Below are positions 12,034-32,419 of a stretch of 32,700 nt of DNA, piece by piece. Below the pieces are notes generated by a model. The model did not search any database. It was not told where the DNA came from and saw nothing but the letters and a program-made list of their open reading frames with translations. Position 1 is the first letter of the stretch. Every line of letters starts with the position of its first letter. Position numbers and translations under genes: made by a program. The DNA is from Chloroflexota bacterium. Lineage in GTDB: Bacteria; Chloroflexota; Anaerolineae; Anaerolineales; UBA4823. Location: the NCBI GenBank assembly GCA_020346705.1, contig CP070785.1, forward strand, positions 2,768,370-2,801,069. Reading direction: 5' to 3'.

Positions 12034-13734
12034 CTACTGTAGCCTTCTTCTCTCTAAATCGAAAATGCGCCGTAGGATGGCAACTGTTACCCCATATGTG
12101 GAATCCATGCCATAGTAGGAAAGACTGCCCGCACCAAGATTTCTACCCTTACTGAGTGGAGTATCCGAGGCGTAATGCAGGATGCCCACATCAAATGGAA
12201 TTCCATACAAATTCACAACCTCATTTATTGGATGACGTTGTGGCCGATACATCTCATACATAGCAGATAAATAGGGACCAGCTTCCATTTCGATATCTGT
12301 GTACCCTTCCCTATAAAATACATCCATGTAGATATCATTTTGAAGGAAAGTCCCTCGAACTGTGACCGCCTTCTGGTTATCAAGGATTGCACCATACACT
12401 ACGTAAGGAGTAACATCGGAGGCAGTGAAGGAATTCGGAAAGAGGTAAGTATTGTGAGATTGTTCATCCTGAACCACGGTAGGAATCATCACGTCGCCTA
12501 TTACCCCGTTCAAGGTGGCAGCTTTCCCTGTAATATAGACACCCAGGATTTCTCCGACTTGTTCTGAGATTTTAAATAGGATATTGTAGGCGGCCATTCC
12601 CAATGGATAATCAATATTGAGGATCAGGGCATCGCTTTCATTCAAGAAACCCAGATCTTGACCCAGTCTGGAATCCATCACAGCTGGATCCAATTGTGAA
12701 AGCTGGATAACTTGAGCTTCGACATCAAAGCTGTGCAAACTGGGGATATGCTGGATACCCAATTTTTCCTCATGTGCCTTCATTTCTCTTTGCAGTTTTG
12801 CGCTCTGTCGATGGTTCAAGAATTCTTTAAACACATAATAGAAAAAATTTTCGCGATTGGATGGAACCCGGTCTTCCCTTATTTTGCGCCATTCTCTCGC
12901 TAAATCCCCATTTTTAGATTTTTCGATATGGGTTAGCAAATCATCCTTATGCTTTAGAGCAAAACCTGAGATCAGATTAACTAAGCTGTGTTTGTTGCTT
13001 GACACAAAATAAACTGGTCTTTCTCGTAAATCTGGGCAATCCTCCTCAATATTATTCCACCATATTCGGGTTGCACGCCAGTAATCGCTCAAAGAACCAC
13101 TCAAAAGTTGTAGGCGGATTCGACTCGGCCTGGATGCCATCTCGCACATTACTTCGGTGAAATCACTACCCAAAAGCGTTTGCAGCTGTGCTAACTCTTC
13201 AACTGAAATCTTTAAGGCTTCGGCTACTTGAGCGAAGGTAACTGCATCATCTTCTAAACCAGCGATGTCAATTGAGCTTGGAATCATCTGCAGAAGACCG
13301 TGAATTTTATTCCATTCAATTTGGAAAGCAGTCAGGAGTGGCACGACATCATCAATATCAGTCCGGCTGGCGATATAAACTGCCAGATTCTCCTTTCCAT
13401 CATAAAAACATCTTCTTCGCCTGGCTGGTGCAAATACTTGCTGCCACGATTCAACATCACCAAAACCCCTGCGTTCAAAAACCTCGGGAGATTGTCCCAA
13501 TACCACCAGCTGCACAAGGTGCATTAAGGGAGGCAAGCGTAAAATCGAATAAAAAAAAGCAGAAAGATCTGGGGAAGCTTCCCTCGCTTCGGGGTGGAGC
13601 AGCGAGTTCATCCGTGCATGGGCTTCCTCCAAGGTGCGGATCTGCACCTCGGCGGTAGAGCGAAGCAAAGAATAATAGGTTCTTTGATATAGATCGATCT
13701 CTTCGGAGGCAGTGCTGGGTACAGTTCGTTCCAT
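12034..13734 (-). CDS. Conserved uncharacterised protein with nucleoside-phosphorylase-like C-terminal region
   Basis: 566 aa, last gene of the hydroxylase operon. Residues 1 to about 340 are mostly helical, charged and unrecognised. The C-terminal region carries motifs that resemble the purine nucleoside phosphorylase/AMP nucleosidase superfamily: TGKAATLNGVIGDVMIP near residues 400-416 (compare G.AG.LNP.l.iGDvViP) and DIEMEAGPYLSAMYE near 480-495 (compare the EMEA substrate-binding motif). A following SDTPLSKG near 523 resembles the SD segment of that fold. I see the motifs directly. Fold assignment and a role in nucleoside or nucleobase handling are inference. Its position behind xanthine dehydrogenase-type genes fits purine metabolism. 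No signal peptide or membrane helix. Confidence 0.7.
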   Translation of the reverse strand: MERTVPSTASEEIDLYQRTYYSLLRSTAEVQIRTLEEAHARMNSLLHPEAREASPDLSAFFYSILRLPPLMHLVQLVVLGQSPEVFERRGFGDVESWQQVFAPARRRRCFYDGKENLAVYIASRTDIDDVVPLLTAFQIEWNKIHGLLQMIPSSIDIAGLEDDAVTFAQVAEALKISVEELAQLQTLLGSDFTEVMCEMASRPSRIRLQLLSGSLSDYWRATRIWWNNIEEDCPDLRERPVYFVSSNKHSLVNLISGFALKHKDDLLTHIEKSKNGDLAREWRKIREDRVPSNRENFFYYVFKEFLNHRQSAKLQREMKAHEEKLGIQHIPSLHSFDVEAQVIQLSQLDPAVMDSRLGQDLGFLNESDALILNIDYPLGMAAYNILFKISEQVGEILGVYITGKAATLNGVIGDVMIPTVVQDEQSHNTYLFPNSFTASDVTPYVVYGAILDNQKAVTVRGTFLQNDIYMDVFYREGYTDIEMEAGPYLSAMYEMYRPQRHPINEVVNLYGIPFDVGILHYASDTPLSKGRNLGAGSLSYYGMDSTYGVTVAILRRIFDLERRRLQ

Positions 13735-23385: not shown

Positions 23386-23997
23386 TCAGACAGACCAGCT
23401 TTCCAACTCATTGCTGACCAATTCCAGATCTTCAGGGACATCCATATCCAGAGCCAGCGAAGGCAATTCACAAATCTCCAGACGCGCGCCTATCTCCCGG
23501 GCGTTTTGGCAGTGGCGTTCAAATGAATTCGGTCCGTAATCGTATTCGATTAAGCCTACCGGACATATCAGCAAAGCATTCGTGCCCGTTTTCTTGCGAT
23601 CAGGAGCGACAACGACAACAGGAGGATCCTTAACTTTATCCAGCATCGCATAAACATCTTCTTTGGAAATCATCGGCAGATCCGACGGGATTATTAAAAC
23701 CCCGCGCGTTGCATATCTCTTGGCCACGATGGTTGCCCTGGTAAGTGCAACATTCAATTCTGGGGCACCCTTCTCCTGCACTGTGCGAGCCCCGTGGGCC
23801 CGCGCCAAAGATAGTGCTGCCTGGTCGCGGCTGACAACAAGGACATGTTCAATCTGAGGTATTTCTCTTAGGGTATCTACTGTGTGGGTTAGTAACTGAC
23901 TGTTCAGGCCTAAACGCTCCTCTTCTGTTAATACTCCCGCCAATCGTGATTTTCCCCGCCTCAAAGGTTTTACTGGAACGATCGCCCATAATGTCAT
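23386..23997 (-). CDS. cofC: Phospholactate/phosphoenolpyruvate guanylyltransferase CofC
   Basis: Makes the GMP-activated three-carbon acid that CofD transfers to FO in F420 synthesis. The N-terminus WAIVPVKPLRRGKSRLAG is the family nucleotide-binding signature. IIPSDLPMI is the metal-binding region, and DRKKTGTNALL followed by FGPNSF-like YGPNSFERH are further CofC motifs. Length 203 aa is normal. Whether the acid is 2-phospholactate, PEP or 3-phosphoglycerate depends on lineage and cannot be told here. The 125-nt gap to cofD upstream could carry its own promoter, but none is obvious. Confidence 0.92.
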   Translation of the reverse strand: MTLWAIVPVKPLRRGKSRLAGVLTEEERLGLNSQLLTHTVDTLREIPQIEHVLVVSRDQAALSLARAHGARTVQEKGAPELNVALTRATIVAKRYATRGVLIIPSDLPMISKEDVYAMLDKVKDPPVVVVAPDRKKTGTNALLICPVGLIEYDYGPNSFERHCQNAREIGARLEICELPSLALDMDVPEDLELVSNELESWSV

Positions 23998-24122
23998 TTA
24001 TCTTTTCCTTTCAGTTGTCTACGAGAATAAACACCAATCTTTCCCTCTTGCTGAGTATATCAATGAAAGTCAAATCTGGAGCCAGCAATTTTGTTATTTT
24101 CCATGCTGCCTCCAAATAATAA

Positions 24123-25091
24123 TTAATTTTTGGACAAATTCAGAGATTTTGAAAATTTTATCACCTCCTTTGCGAGTTCTATCCTATCCTCGGAAGATTC
24201 CATAATTGTATTCATTACTAATGTAGATAATCCTAATCCCTGGATATCTTTCTCCTGGTCAAGATCAAGGATGTCAAAAACATATCCGGTCAACAGCCCC
24301 TCATTTGTCCGAGAACCATAGTGTCGGGCAACACTTAGTGCTGAAGGTTGAATTCCTAATTCAGTGTACATTTTTGCCGCTGGTCCTTTCAATGCTGCGC
24401 CGGCAATAATTGGTGAAACCGCGATAATTTGCTTCCCATCAGGATCGCTTATCATCGTCTCTTTAATGCCTGGAATGGAAAGAATCGGATCGATGCTGAC
24501 CCAGGGATTGGATGGGCAGAAAATTACTACGCCTGCATCCTGAATCGCTTCCATGACACCAGGTGCCGGTCGAGCGGAGGCAATGCTTTCAAAGTGAAAT
24601 CCAGATACCTGAGGCTGGCAGCCCCGTCTGACGAAATAATCTTGGAAGGCTAACTGGCCTTCATCAGTATGGACGATGGTTGGTGTGTGATCATTACTCA
24701 TTGGCAAAATTGTGTGCTTTATATCCCATCGTCCGCAGAACTCTTTCGTCACTTCACTCAGAGTAAAACCTTCCGCCAAAAGTCTAGTTCTTTCCAGGTG
24801 CGTACCCAAATCTCGATCACCGAGTCTAAACCAGGAAGGACCACCTAATTGCTTGAGAGAATCCATAACATGCCAAGTTTCCGCCTCCCTTCCCCATCCA
24901 GTTACAGGATTGGCTAAACCTGCCAGGGTATAACAGACTGTATCCAGATCAGGGCACACACGCAATCCGAAGTGATCAAAGTCATCTCCAGTATTTACGA
25001 TCACTGTCAATGAATTTTCCGGCAGGATTCTTGATAAACCATCTGCAAGCTTGGCGCCACCAACTCCACCAGCTAAAGCTGCAATTTTCAT
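24123..25091 (-). CDS. cofD: 2-phospho-L-lactate transferase CofD
   Basis: Transfers the phospho-acid moiety from the GDP- or GTP-activated intermediate to FO, giving F420-0 or its dehydro form. Diagnostic features are LAGGVGGAKLADGL at residues 6-19, VNTGDDFDHFGLRVCPDLDTV near 33-53, WFRLGDRDLGTHLER and FCPSNPWVSIDPIL. Length 322 aa is standard. It is preceded by the PPOX-type F420 protein with a 40-nt gap. Confidence 0.95.
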   Translation of the reverse strand: MKIAALAGGVGGAKLADGLSRILPENSLTVIVNTGDDFDHFGLRVCPDLDTVCYTLAGLANPVTGWGREAETWHVMDSLKQLGGPSWFRLGDRDLGTHLERTRLLAEGFTLSEVTKEFCGRWDIKHTILPMSNDHTPTIVHTDEGQLAFQDYFVRRGCQPQVSGFHFESIASARPAPGVMEAIQDAGVVIFCPSNPWVSIDPILSIPGIKETMISDPDGKQIIAVSPIIAGAALKGPAAKMYTELGIQPSALSVARHYGSRTNEGLLTGYVFDILDLDQEKDIQGLGLSTLVMNTIMESSEDRIELAKEVIKFSKSLNLSKN

Positions 25092-25131
25092 ATCAGGTAA
25101 TCAAACCAAGGATGGATCTAATAATTCTTTC

Positions 25132-25533
25132 TCAACCAGCTACCTGAACTTTCTCAGGTAAGAGCTTATATATCAAGCGAACTTCATTTGGATCTTTAAG
25201 CTTGAACTCCTTGTTTCCGGTATATTTCTTCGATAAATCATTAATATGTTGCCTGGCTCCTTCGCCGCTAATTTCTACAATCCTCCCTCGCACCTGTGCA
25301 TAACGCAGGGGTATTTTTTGGTCGTGAATAACCAATGCAACCTGTGGACGCTCGCGCATGTTTACATCTTTTACCCGTCCTTTTGCAGAATTGAGTTGGA
25401 TAAAATCACCATCCACATTGAACCAAACAGGTGTTAGCTGTGGGGTACCATCACTCAAAATTGTTGCCAGGTAACCAAACGCCTTCGTTTCATCGGCTAG
25501 TAAATCCTGATGTGATTCAGGGAAATTGTTCAT
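25132..25533 (-). CDS. PPOX-class F420-dependent oxidoreductase
   Basis: 133-aa split beta-barrel of the pyridoxamine-phosphate-oxidase-like/FDOR type. FGYLATILSDGTPQLTPVWF at about residues 19-38 and LNSAKGRVKDVNMRERPQVAL at about 48-68 match F420-dependent members. The substrate is unknown. ATG preceded by AAGGAG 9 nt upstream. That ribosome site directly follows the stop of the decayed pyrophosphatase-like gene, so the two were cotranscribed. Confidence 0.9.
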   Translation of the reverse strand: MNNFPESHQDLLADETKAFGYLATILSDGTPQLTPVWFNVDGDFIQLNSAKGRVKDVNMRERPQVALVIHDQKIPLRYAQVRGRIVEISGEGARQHINDLSKKYTGNKEFKLKDPNEVRLIYKLLPEKVQVAG

Positions 25534-25548
25534 TGCTATGTTACTCCT

Positions 25549-25887
25549 TTACCTTCGGATCTGCATGGCACCCATGCTACCTGAATACTAACAATCCAAT
25601 ATCGTCTGCATCCAGGAATCTGAGAAACCTACTTATGTCTTGATCTCCAAATCATTTTTTCTGATATCCATGGTTCACACAAGTTCATAGATTTTCTTTT
25701 CTCTTAAACTTCCTATCCAAACTTCCACCTTCCCGCCATCACCAGAAGCTATTTCTTTATAAAAAACGTAATCAAGCGGATAAATTAGATTGTTGCAACG
25801 AAAGTGAGTTGATCCTTTGGGGCGATCAATGACCAACCTGCTATTTTCAACCAAACAATCCACATATTTCCAGAATTCGTGTTCCAT
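25549..25887 (-). pseudogene. Decayed small inorganic-pyrophosphatase-like gene with three in-frame stops
   Basis: Only the first 70 codons form an open frame, ending at TGA (25675-25677). The same frame continues with recognisable family sequence: after the TGA comes TMDIRKNDLEIKT, then TAA (25633-25635), VGFSDSWMQTILDC, TAG (25588-25590), YSGSMGAMQIRR and a normal-looking TAA at 25549-25551. The N-terminal part has VIDRPKGSTHFRCNNLIYPL, like small proteins labelled inorganic pyrophosphatase in Firmicutes and Chloroflexota (about 110-120 aa). The whole is 112 codons with no indel. The stops sit where relatives have Cys, Leu and His-type residues. It ends 15 nt before the PPOX gene start, in the place of a former operon member. 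Confidence 0.82.
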
Positions 25888-25903
25888 TGTCTATATGTTA
25901 TAT

Positions 25904-26677
25904 CTAACGAAACAGATCCTCCCGTTCTGGTCGGATCAGCTCACTCAGCTGACCTTCTCGTAATGCATAAGGAAAACCCCGCGCGTGGACAACCGGAGTC
26001 CCTTCAGCCGCCTGACCCATCACCAATGATGCAGCAGAAGCCAATTCGTCTGCCGCTCCAACCTGGGTAATTTCCAGTCTGAAGCCGAATAAATCCTTTT
26101 CCCCCCTTAAGTCCACCAAGCCTGGCATTCCAGAAAAACCGATCGCCACACCAGCAGTTCCCATTCGCCAGGCTCTGCCATGAGAATCGATAATCAAAAC
26201 TCCCAGCGACACGCCCGAATCCTTTTCGAGCTGATTGCGTAGATATTGGGCCGAAGCATCCGGATCCTCAGGGAGTAGCAGCACCCACTCACCCGAATCA
26301 TCCGTACTCCTCACATTGGAACGATCGATACCTGCATTTGCACAGACGAAACCAAGGCGGTGTTCCACGATGATCGTTCCTGGCCGGGTGCGCAGGATTG
26401 ATTTGCTTTCCTGGAGGATCAATTCAATGAGACGAGGATCCTTTTCAACCTTTGGAGCAAGCTCAACCGCTTCTTGGGAAGGCTTGACCTGGGCCAGGTT
26501 TACTGATCGACCCTCTGATTTGGAAACGATCTTTTGGGCTAGAACCAATATATCCCCATGATTTAAAGATAAACCAGCACGCTTTAATCCATCCAGGATC
26601 AAAACTTTCAAATCATCTCCAGGATTTACCACTGGAACTCCTGGTAGAGGAGTGAGTGTGAGAGTCAAAGTACTCAC
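25904..26677 (-). CDS. cofE: Coenzyme F420-0:L-glutamate ligase CofE
   Basis: Adds the first glutamates to F420-0 using GTP. PVVNPGDDLKVLI (about 15-27), LAQKIVSKSEGR (46-57), VCANAGIDRSNV and the metal/substrate segment DSHGRAWRMGTAGVAIGFSG are conserved, as is DLRGEKDLFGFRLE...ADELASAASLVMGQ. At 257 aa it is the archaeal-type single domain, without the nitroreductase-like C-terminal domain of actinobacterial FbiB. GTG start. The next gene upstream is the NADPH:F420 reductase, 20 nt away. Confidence 0.94.
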   Translation of the reverse strand: MSTLTLTLTPLPGVPVVNPGDDLKVLILDGLKRAGLSLNHGDILVLAQKIVSKSEGRSVNLAQVKPSQEAVELAPKVEKDPRLIELILQESKSILRTRPGTIIVEHRLGFVCANAGIDRSNVRSTDDSGEWVLLLPEDPDASAQYLRNQLEKDSGVSLGVLIIDSHGRAWRMGTAGVAIGFSGMPGLVDLRGEKDLFGFRLEITQVGAADELASAASLVMGQAAEGTPVVHARGFPYALREGQLSELIRPEREDLFR

Positions 26678-29304: not shown

Positions 29305-29916
29305 TTAATCAAATATCGTTGGACGATCTGAAGACAATGCCTGGAAAGCGTCATGGACGTGTCGTTCTCTAGTTCGCTCTCCAGATAACGAATTTGGAAT
29401 CTCTTCCTGGGCGAAAAAGGCAACCTCAGAAGTTTCATCGCTTACCCGAGGAGCTCCTCCGAGTATATCGCAGAGAAACACGATTTTAAACGCATGGAAG
29501 ATTTCCAATGGTCCTGTGCGATTCGCATCATAAACACCAATTACTTTGCGAGCCTTAACTTCGAATCCTGATTCCTCTAATACTTCCCTTTCCACAGCTT
29601 CTGAAGGAACATCTCCGACATCGGCCCATCCACCAGGCAGCGTCCATCCCCCATCCGCGATTTCACGGACGAACAGCAGTTTCTCCTGTTTAAATACCGC
29701 ACCCCTAACATCGATCCTTGGAGTTGCATAACCTGTTTGGCGACTGAATATCTCAACCAATTCAGAGCAATCTAGATTTGTATGGGTACTGATAATCTCC
29801 GCGGAAATCTCCATCAATCTGGAAAAGCGTTCTAGTTGGTAATGGTTTTCCGCAAAATGCAATCCCGTTTGGGAGATGGACTGGATTTCTCTTGCCCATT
29901 TAAGCCATAGTGGCAT
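29305..29916 (-). CDS. NUDIX hydrolase with N-terminal helical domain (ADP-ribose pyrophosphatase-like)
   Basis: Residues 1-70 form a helical N-terminal domain (LKWAREIQSISQTGLHFA..., ending YATPRIDVRGAVF) typical of the Nudix_N_2 group. The Nudix box is GGWADVGDVPSEAVEREVLEESGF, with Asp where many have Glu at its first acidic position, and REVLEESG intact. It probably hydrolyses ADP-ribose or a nucleotide sugar. The ATG at 29916 matches the homologous N-terminus but lacks a ribosome site. The frame stays open up to a TTG at 30003. A strong palindrome lies 60-83 nt upstream of the ATG. It may lead the SsnA/F420 unit. Confidence 0.87.
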   Translation of the reverse strand: MPLWLKWAREIQSISQTGLHFAENHYQLERFSRLMEISAEIISTHTNLDCSELVEIFSRQTGYATPRIDVRGAVFKQEKLLFVREIADGGWTLPGGWADVGDVPSEAVEREVLEESGFEVKARKVIGVYDANRTGPLEIFHAFKIVFLCDILGGAPRVSDETSEVAFFAQEEIPNSLSGERTRERHVHDAFQALSSDRPTIFD

Positions 29917-29975
29917 AATGTTTTTTTGTTGATTTGTAATATCTAACTCCAATCTGAAATCTAAGTTCTGATTAA

Positions 29976-29999
29976 TTGATAATAACTGATTATCATCAA
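29976..29999. promoter_or_regulatory. Inverted repeat upstream of the NUDIX gene, candidate operator
   Basis: TTGATAATAA-CTGA-TTATCATCAA is a 10-4-10 inverted repeat with one mismatch. It also contains a perfect 7-5-7 palindrome TGATAAT / ATTATCA. It lies 60 nt above the preferred NUDIX ATG, in AT-rich DNA. Half-sites resemble GATAAT-type Fur-family boxes, although the spacing differs. Confidence 0.45.
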
Positions 30000-30061
30000 C
30001 CAATTAGGGTTCGATCCTTGGGCGTGTAAATTATTAACCTCTTTTATTATCCAGGATCACT

Positions 30062-30936
30062 TCAATCAGCACTTCCTAAAACACTCCCAACCCTATCCCA
30101 GGCAACATCAAGTACTTCTTGGAGGAGGACCTTCACAATCGGTGAGCGATAATCCATTGCTGATCGATATGGGTTGGTCCTTAATAACAATTCATCCGAC
30201 ATGGCTTAGAAAACCATATCTTTCAAGGCTGGAGTCAAAGTTTTCACCTAGGATTACTTATTCATCCTGCCTGGTCCGCATTGGTACCGGACCTGAAGTA
30301 CCTAGAGCAAGACGAGCCTCAGCTATGTGGTTTTTTTCGCAATGCATCCAATGGGCAACAATAATTACCGGGTGTGAAATTCCTTGGGGGAGCATCACCC
30401 TCCAAAACGCAGAAGCTTTCCCATCGTCGAGACGGGGGATGTAAAATCCTACGATAAGTACCTGACTCTCCTCTATGGTTGAACGTCCTGGTCCGATGAA
30501 TATAATTTCTAGGTCTGTTATCCTTGCTCGTTCCAATCCAACAGCTTCCAACTTGGATCCGAGAGCTATAAAAACTACTGTTCCATCCCTGCCGAAATCG
30601 CCTGTCCGACATTATCACCCAATCTTGCGGTATTCCGAACTTAGAAAGCTACAATCTGGTTAAATGCTTCAACTATTGCCTGACCATTTTTATTAACCAA
30701 TGGAGATGTAATAATTTGGTTCAGAGGTACTGCCGCTCCATTGAAAAATTATCTCCCCTGTCCTCAATAGCATTTAGCTCCGGAATGTTGCAAATATCCA
30801 CCAGATTTTCTACCAGAGGTTGATTTCCGTGCTGAATTTCCAGAAGCAAGTCGGTGCCATCCGCGATCACCTTAGCTGCATTAGTGATCATGAATAAGAC
30901 TTCAGGTATAGATTATGCGAGGTAGTAATTCTTCTA
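30062..30936 (-). pseudogene. Decayed FAD-binding subunit of a molybdenum hydroxylase
   Basis: No single frame spans this stretch, but four successive pieces on the minus strand align with a CoxM-type FAD subunit of about 290 aa. Piece 1 (30933 to about 30745): NYYLA-stop-SIPEVL, KVIADGTDLLLEIQHG, LVDICNIPELNAIED. Frameshift in a T-rich run near 30741-30750. Piece 2 (to about 30600): GAAVPLNQIITSPLV, then TAA (30641-30643), VRNTARLGDNVGQAIS. Frameshift near 30585-30600. Piece 3: FIALGSKLEAVGLE, GPGRSTIEESQ, SAFWRVMLPQG, ARLALGTSGPVPMRTRQDE, TAA (30258-30260), VILGENFDSSLE. Frameshift near 30180-30200. Piece 4 (30169-30062): YRSPIVKVLLQEVLDVAW to a final TGA. It would have encoded a third FAD subunit. 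Confidence 0.85.
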
Positions 30937-31239
30937 GAGAGAAATGGATCGGCGACCGGCGGTTCTATAAACGGAAAATCCCGAATCGAGAGAAAACCAC
31001 GAGAATTGCGGCTCTTTTCGACAGGCTTAAATCCGACTCCACCGCAGGGTTTTCCTGCGACGACTACCGGTCCGAGTAAAAACCATACTTACTCACCGTC
31101 TGGATTAATACTTGGATAGTATTGATTAATCTCATCCCCTCGGTTCATTTTTTAGCATATAATCGGATAATTCTATCGATGCTTTGTAATTTATATACTG
31201 AAGAATCCCTTCCTGATAGATCAACGTGAGGTGGAAAGA
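30937..31239. other. Intergenic stretch without a convincing gene
   Basis: About 300 nt between the FAD pseudogene and the MOSC gene. It holds a perfect 6-bp hairpin CGCAGG-GTTTT-CCTGCG at 31043-31059. A 103-nt segment read on the minus strand (30972-31074) can be drawn as a damaged long-variable-arm tRNA (see findings). A TATAAT at 31158-31163 is about 76 nt before the MOSC ATG and is a plausible -10, but no good -35 precedes it. No open frame in this interval looks coding. Confidence 0.5.
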
Positions 31240-31746
31240 ATGGTATTTCAAGGTCAACTACTATCAATTTTTATTCGTCCGACACCTGGTGAACGAGTAT
31301 TAGAACTTAAAGAGGTCCATGCTGTGCCAGGTAAGGGATTGAAAGGGGATTATTACTATAATGGGATTGCTCATAAAGGTAGGGAACCAGCCCGCGAATT
31401 GACTTTGATTGAAAAAGAAACCTTACAGACTCTTGAACACGAGAATAAGATATCTCTTAGTCCTGCAGATAGCCGGAGAAATTTACTCACTGAAAATGTG
31501 CGATTAAACCAGCTGGTTGGTAAGGAATTTCGCGTTGGCGATGTAACCCTGAAAGGCATTCGACTTTGTGAACCATGCTCACATCTGGCTTCACTTACCC
31601 AAGAGGCAATACTTCCGGCATTGGTCCATCGCGGGGGATTGCGGGCGGAAATCCTAACAGAAGGCGTTATTCGCGTTGGCGATCCAATTTCATATTCTGG
31701 TGGTGTTCAGATGGAAGAGGTGCCACATGCAGAACCAAATAATTGA
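31240..31746 (+). CDS. MOSC-domain protein
   Basis: 168-aa stand-alone MOSC (Mo cofactor sulfurase C-terminal) domain, a fold that binds molybdenum cofactor or carries sulfur. GLKGDYYYNG, RELTLIEKET, SRRNLLTENVRLNQLVGKEFRVGDV and LCEPCSHL follow the family, with the conserved Cys in the CEPC segment. ATG at 31240 is preferred over GTG at 31231 because AGGTGG lies 7 nt before the ATG. It overlaps the DUF1361 gene by 20 nt. The link to molybdenum hydroxylases in the window is functional, although it is transcribed on the other strand. Confidence 0.9.
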   Translation: MVFQGQLLSIFIRPTPGERVLELKEVHAVPGKGLKGDYYYNGIAHKGREPARELTLIEKETLQTLEHENKISLSPADSRRNLLTENVRLNQLVGKEFRVGDVTLKGIRLCEPCSHLASLTQEAILPALVHRGGLRAEILTEGVIRVGDPISYSGGVQMEEVPHAEPNN

Positions 31747-32419
31747 TTTGAGAAGATTGCATCAATTTCTCTCCCAGCAAACAATTTATCCGTTATTACT
31801 CTCCACATTCTTATGCCTGGCATTATTTTCTGCCCGTGTTGTACAAAGCCATTCGCTTGCCTTCGGCAATCTGATATGGAATTTGTTTTTAGCCTGGCTG
31901 CCGTTCCTGTTTAGTATTTGGGCAGCTGCTCTTTACACGACAAATTCTGGGCGGTGGTGGGTAATTTCTTTTCTAGGATTTCTGTGGTTGATCTTCTTTC
32001 CTAATGCCCCATACATCATCACCGATTTCCTGCATTTAGCAGTTCGCCCCAGAGTTCCATTGTGGTTTGATATTTTGATGTTGGCCGCTTTTGCCTGGAC
32101 CGGATTTTTCCTGGCGATCGCTTCCTTGAGAACAATGCAATTACTGGTTAAGAAGCATGTCGGCTGGATGGTGAGCTGGGTATTTGCTGGCTCTGTACTC
32201 ACATTGGGTGGCATTGGAATCTACCTCGGACGATTTTCACGCTGGAACAGCTGGGATATATTTTTCTATCCCAAAGAGATTTTCTATGATGTGGCAGTTC
32301 GACTGGCCAATCCATTTAGCAATTTGAGCTTCTTTGGATTTACAGGTATTTTCACTGCATTTTTAATTGTTTCTTATCTTATGTTTATCTCTATTCGAAG
32401 AGACTCAAATATAATTTAA
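31727..32419 (+). CDS. DUF1361 integral membrane protein
   Basis: 230-aa polytopic protein with about six hydrophobic helices. The family motif FFPNAPYIITDFLHL is near residues 88-102, followed by PLWFDILMLAAFAWTGF. These are hallmarks of DUF1361, whose function is unknown. ATG at 31727 lies inside the MOSC gene with GGAAGAGGTG upstream. A longer reading starting at 31676 is out of frame with the MOSC protein and lacks a ribosome site. Confidence 0.85.
   Translation: MQNQIIDLRRLHQFLSQQTIYPLLLSTFLCLALFSARVVQSHSLAFGNLIWNLFLAWLPFLFSIWAAALYTTNSGRWWVISFLGFLWLIFFPNAPYIITDFLHLAVRPRVPLWFDILMLAAFAWTGFFLAIASLRTMQLLVKKHVGWMVSWVFAGSVLTLGGIGIYLGRFSRWNSWDIFFYPKEIFYDVAVRLANPFSNLSFFGFTGIFTAFLIVSYLMFISIRRDSNII

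Follow-up and report, generated by a model that had tools for sequence, protein, structure and literature searches.

The question raised by this locus is whether a minus-strand stretch that is open in no single frame is the remnant of a gene and, if so, of which enzyme and in what order its parts were lost. Gene decay is common in bacteria. The DNA analysed here is a stretch of 32,700 nucleotides (hereafter, the window), which corresponds to C1:2768370-2801069 of a 3.27-Mb scaffold; the named relatives of the genome that carries it are metagenome bins of Anaerolineales and other Chloroflexota. A preliminary description of the window had proposed an ordered, nearly full-length CoxM-like pseudogene spread over several frames and had called for a frame-aware protein alignment, which we carried out.

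The alignment gave an ordered match to the intact protein of a same-genus genome, G003, with a score of 716, whereas 100 dinucleotide shuffles reached a mean of 32 and a maximum of 43, which confirms the proposal. Read in three frames, the minus strand yields four pieces that, taken in order, span almost the whole of the intact homologues. The closest live paralogue in this genome gave a score of 383, compared with a maximum of 54 among 100 dinucleotide shuffles, and the plus strand of the stretch yielded only 33-38 (33 with the G003 protein). The joined pieces matched FAD_binding_5 (PF00941; E 1.4e-20, 74.2 bits, cut-off 27) followed by CO_deh_flav_C (PF03450; E 7.6e-6, 26.4 bits, cut-off 25.5), which are the domains, in the order, that characterize the family. 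The whole-genome family search detected the locus even unaided, at 24.7 bits, under the curated cut-off of 27. Based on the alignment with its shuffles, the Pfam matches and the same-genus orthologues, window positions 30062-30945 (minus strand) are, to judge by their sequence, a pseudogene of the FAD subunit of a molybdenum hydroxylase, of the XdhB/CoxM type assigned previously. The limits first given, 30062-30936, were right to about ten bases, with the 5′ end properly placed at 30945.

In the aligned DNA, the ancestral start codon falls at 30943-30945 (minus strand), where the window reads ATT, G002 reads AGG and G001, G003 and G004 read ATG. The first minus-strand piece (30760-30954) corresponds to the N-terminal part of the FAD-binding domain and contains the stops TAG (30936-30934) and TAA (30915-30913); its AGGT motif has become ADGT. 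The second (30587-30745, minus strand) covers the region of the QVRNxAxLGGN motif, which now reads stop-VRNTARLGDN, and has a TAA at 30643-30641. The third (30207-30584, minus strand) runs from the latter half of the FAD-binding domain into the start of the C-terminal domain, with a TAA at 30260-30258, and the fourth (30092-30202, minus strand) belongs to the C-terminal domain, its frame continuing to a TGA at 30064-30062. Frame changes occur near 30750, 30586 and 30205. The loss of the start codon, the four stops within the reading frame and the three frame changes, all in a homologue of a live gene, are the several disabling lesions expected of a pseudogene. Neither AGGT nor LGGN survives in the relic (ADGT and LGDN), and both are intact in G001-G004. 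Across 73 homologues, 63 columns are near-invariant, with a conservation of 97% or more; the relic departs from them at 22 (two of them gaps) and G002 at 10, while the whole operons depart at 3 (G003), 2 (G004) and 1 (G001), and the references at 2 or fewer. Judged by its domains and lesions, the relic descends from the PF00941 and PF03450 family and cannot work as a member of it.

What had been called a single contig is a scaffold. Its 100-N gaps, together with a genome completeness of 73%, lend something to the reading that the gene is in fact live and that its frames were broken by mistakes in sequencing or assembly. Nevertheless, we regard such an error as extremely improbable because none of the flanking genes (Nudix, phosphatase, amidohydrolase, MOSC and DUF1361) is broken, the window contains no N, and changes at 22 of the 63 near-invariant columns are beyond what indel errors could produce by themselves. 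The lost start, the four stops, the three frame changes and these 22 breaks all lie within one 0.9-kb stretch, and the partner gene is absent as well, which further argues against it. Directly past the window end lies a run of 100 N (L012:5071-5170, that is, C1:2801070-2801169), and similar runs occur in L009, L054 and L025 (G004). A 637-aa Fe-S/Mo protein at this place (L012:5050-6963) was considered as a second pseudogene and rejected, since it is cut by the scaffold gap and measures 902 aa in G004. In this Fe-S/Mo fusion protein (L012:5050-6963 and L142), a MoCoBD_2 match (profile 51-171) comes before the MoCoBD_1 match, opposite to what the genome's other large subunits show; G004 has a relative of it.

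Four same-genus genomes (Chloroflexota, Anaerolineales) have an uninterrupted FAD frame at the same place, 48-59% identical to the relic. In G001, G003 and G004, the gene after the FAD subunit encodes a fused 2Fe-2S/Mo large subunit (943-972 aa, about 2.8 kb) and is itself followed by the Nudix gene, with a phosphatase and an amidohydrolase beyond it where the contig extends that far. On the opposite flank, these three genomes carry a divergent DUF1361 gene, which is preceded by a MOSC gene in G001-G003. The large subunit adjoins the FAD gene in 78 of the 80 named related loci, the exceptions being L058, which is G002's own record, and L066, from a Candidatus Aquidulcis bin. In the latter, a short-chain dehydrogenase-like gene lies downstream of the FAD subunit (L066:7965-8894) in place of the large subunit; we dropped it as a second orphan case because a 69% large subunit is present elsewhere in that genome.

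The window keeps every member of this locus except the large subunit. The Nudix hydrolase gene (29305-30003, minus strand; Pfam and synteny) is intact and in the relatives starts directly after the large-subunit gene. The divergent MOSC-domain gene (31231-31746, plus strand; Pfam and synteny), retained in G001, G002 and G003, is likewise intact, as is the DUF1361 gene (31676-32419, plus strand), whose product is 71-83% identical in the four relatives and thus provides a local yardstick for live genes. Synteny and a tblastn search with the large subunit place the missing gene at 30004-30061, where it has left no recognisable remnant; neither tblastn nor blastn found one between the relic and the Nudix gene or between the relic and the MOSC gene. 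Relocation of the large subunit within the same genome was ruled out, as the best match there is a 62% paralogue from another operon. No RNA or tRNA genes that might have caused the deletion were found in the window. These observations support the view that the enzyme to which the relic belonged has been lost from this genome; to describe it as being lost was correct as to the loss and understated its extent, given that the catalytic-subunit gene is absent from the locus and has no orthologue in the genome as assembled.

The closest relative, G002, lacks the large subunit too. Its FAD frame is open except for the start codon, lost as AGG, and the next ATG would drop about 24 N-terminal residues. 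About 0.2 kb separate the FAD stop from the apparent start of the Nudix gene, within which the contig ends. No large subunit covering the orthologue's range was found in the G002 genome, which is 80% complete, and the best long match was 39%. In the tree, the relic and G002 are joined at 100/99 within a five-gene locus clade at 100/100, and the two share six changes at near-invariant columns.

In this enzyme family, the role of the FAD subunit is to pass on electrons that come from the Mo and Fe-S centres, so that alone it would be useless. We favour, at a probability of roughly 80%, a history in which the large subunit was deleted once, in the ancestor that this genome shared with G002, and the orphan FAD subunit then decayed, further so in the window lineage. 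The ancestor of the genus would have had a two-gene operon between the Nudix and MOSC genes, with the FAD subunit followed by the fused 2Fe-2S/Mo large subunit. Once the latter had been deleted in the ancestor shared with G002, the partnerless FAD subunit would have had no electrons to carry, and the constraint on it would have weakened. The start codon would then have been lost separately in both lineages, and the window lineage would have gone on to acquire stops and frameshifts. The tree, the shared near-invariant breaks and the different start loss of G002 (AGG) are the reasons for preferring this order of ancestral loss, weakened constraint and separate decay.

Three observations count against a single ancestral deletion. 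One is the codon model, in which omega was 0.19 on the relic branch versus 0.125 elsewhere (log-likelihood gain 0.7, not significant) and 0.13 on the G002 branch, with omega of 1 rejected on both, in a test that is weak because synonymous sites are near saturation. The second is that the deletion junctions of the window and G002 resemble each other weakly, with a clear likeness over only about 19 bases, matched by 6 of 1000 shuffles. The third is that the G002 contig stops within the apparent Nudix start, in a genome that is 80% complete. Low omega and the weak likeness of the junctions would also fit two late and independent losses of the large subunit, here and in G002, with both FAD genes fully constrained until then. 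We consider such losses unlikely: the six shared changes and the ten near-invariant breaks of G002 speak against them, as does the restriction of this gene loss to the two sister genomes. Taken at face value, the saturated codon model says that most of the relic and G002 branches may have been lived under constraint; as proof of relaxed selection it was dropped, again owing to saturation. With omega well under 1 on both branches, the decay of the relic to its present state probably came late on its branch.

The orphan G002 gene keeps an open frame and shows low omega, and the window genome has several other molybdenum hydroxylases. This could also mean that the FAD subunit outlasted its partner because it worked with a different large subunit of the cell, becoming useless only later. 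The missing start codon of G002, with about 24 N-terminal residues at stake, and its ten changed near-invariant residues make this very unlikely. A broader idea, that in molybdenum hydroxylases a flavin subunit orphaned by deletion of its catalytic partner can retain a use, for example with another large subunit, is scarcely more probable. If it were true, the window would represent the close of this second period of use, of which the open and apparently constrained frame of G002 could be a sign.

The enzyme had been counted as a third molybdenum hydroxylase, and this count was wrong, as live FAD_binding_5 subunits number five in the whole genome, which also has seven MoCoBD_1 places. Within the window, the two live FAD domains had been put forward as possible pointers to the enzyme that replaced the lost one. 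They are remote from the relic (scores of 160 and 31 in the frame-aware alignment, versus 383 for the nearest live paralogue) and do not reveal what replaced it. That nearest paralogue, 37% identical to the relic, is found beyond the window at C1:2500-3378. Its orthologue was found only in G002 (84%), the other loser of the enzyme; among the matches listed, none of that grade occurred in G001, G003 or G004, of which G001 and G003 are 58-64% complete. That both losers are the two holders of the paralogous operon hints at replacement or redundancy, either of which it would fit, although two cases prove nothing. Elsewhere in the window, positions 23386-26677 hold a coenzyme F420 gene cluster (CofC, CofD and F420 ligase), with a luciferase-like monooxygenase and molybdenum hydroxylases close by, and positions 12034-13734 encode a 566-aa protein with a very strong DUF6909 match (740 bits).

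The relic is a well-supported case of ordinary gene death, in which the order of events is unusually readable. Three stages are visible at one locus among relatives, namely the whole enzyme, an open flavin gene without its catalytic subunit, and a broken flavin gene. A search of the literature on this case returned nothing to the point. Since a family search of the genome picks up the dead gene, the locus also warns against counting enzymes from subunit matches alone.

Concerning known systems, the intact enzyme is a molybdenum hydroxylase of the xanthine dehydrogenase family, and no NCBIfam equivalog scored above its cut-off for the FAD or large subunit of G003. The relic has the same domains as XdhB (NF043083; PF00941 and PF03450), in the same order and over nearly the full length, but it is broken, and its intact G003 orthologue reaches 193 bits against a cut-off of 310. 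By sequence, the solved structures nearest to the intact orthologue are CutM/CoxM of CO dehydrogenase (PDB 1ffv and 1n5w; E 6e-31), with CutM (1ffv) the closest. The lost partner, in contrast, looks unlike that of CO dehydrogenase, as the G003 large subunit scores 270 against a cut-off of 991; its best NCBIfam model is selenium-dependent xanthine dehydrogenase (792 bits, cut-off 830), and its nearest solved sequence is aldehyde oxidoreductase (1sij). Within the same genome, the paralogous operon at C1:1-3378 (L050) has the same build, and its large subunit shares 62% identity with the G003 one, but it differs from the relic in belonging to a separate clade (100/100), in its FAD subunit (37% identical) and in its neighbours. 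The scaffold stops within the large subunit of this operon, and bringing the two ends of C1 together does not give an unbroken one. A further counterpart is the Anaerolineae operon of a FAD subunit and a fused 2Fe-2S/Mo subunit (e.g., G003:C66 and G004:C1), which occupies the same genus locus and encodes the FAD subunits 48-59% identical to the relic; the enzyme is whole in three genomes, whereas the window has a broken FAD gene and has lost the large subunit by deletion.
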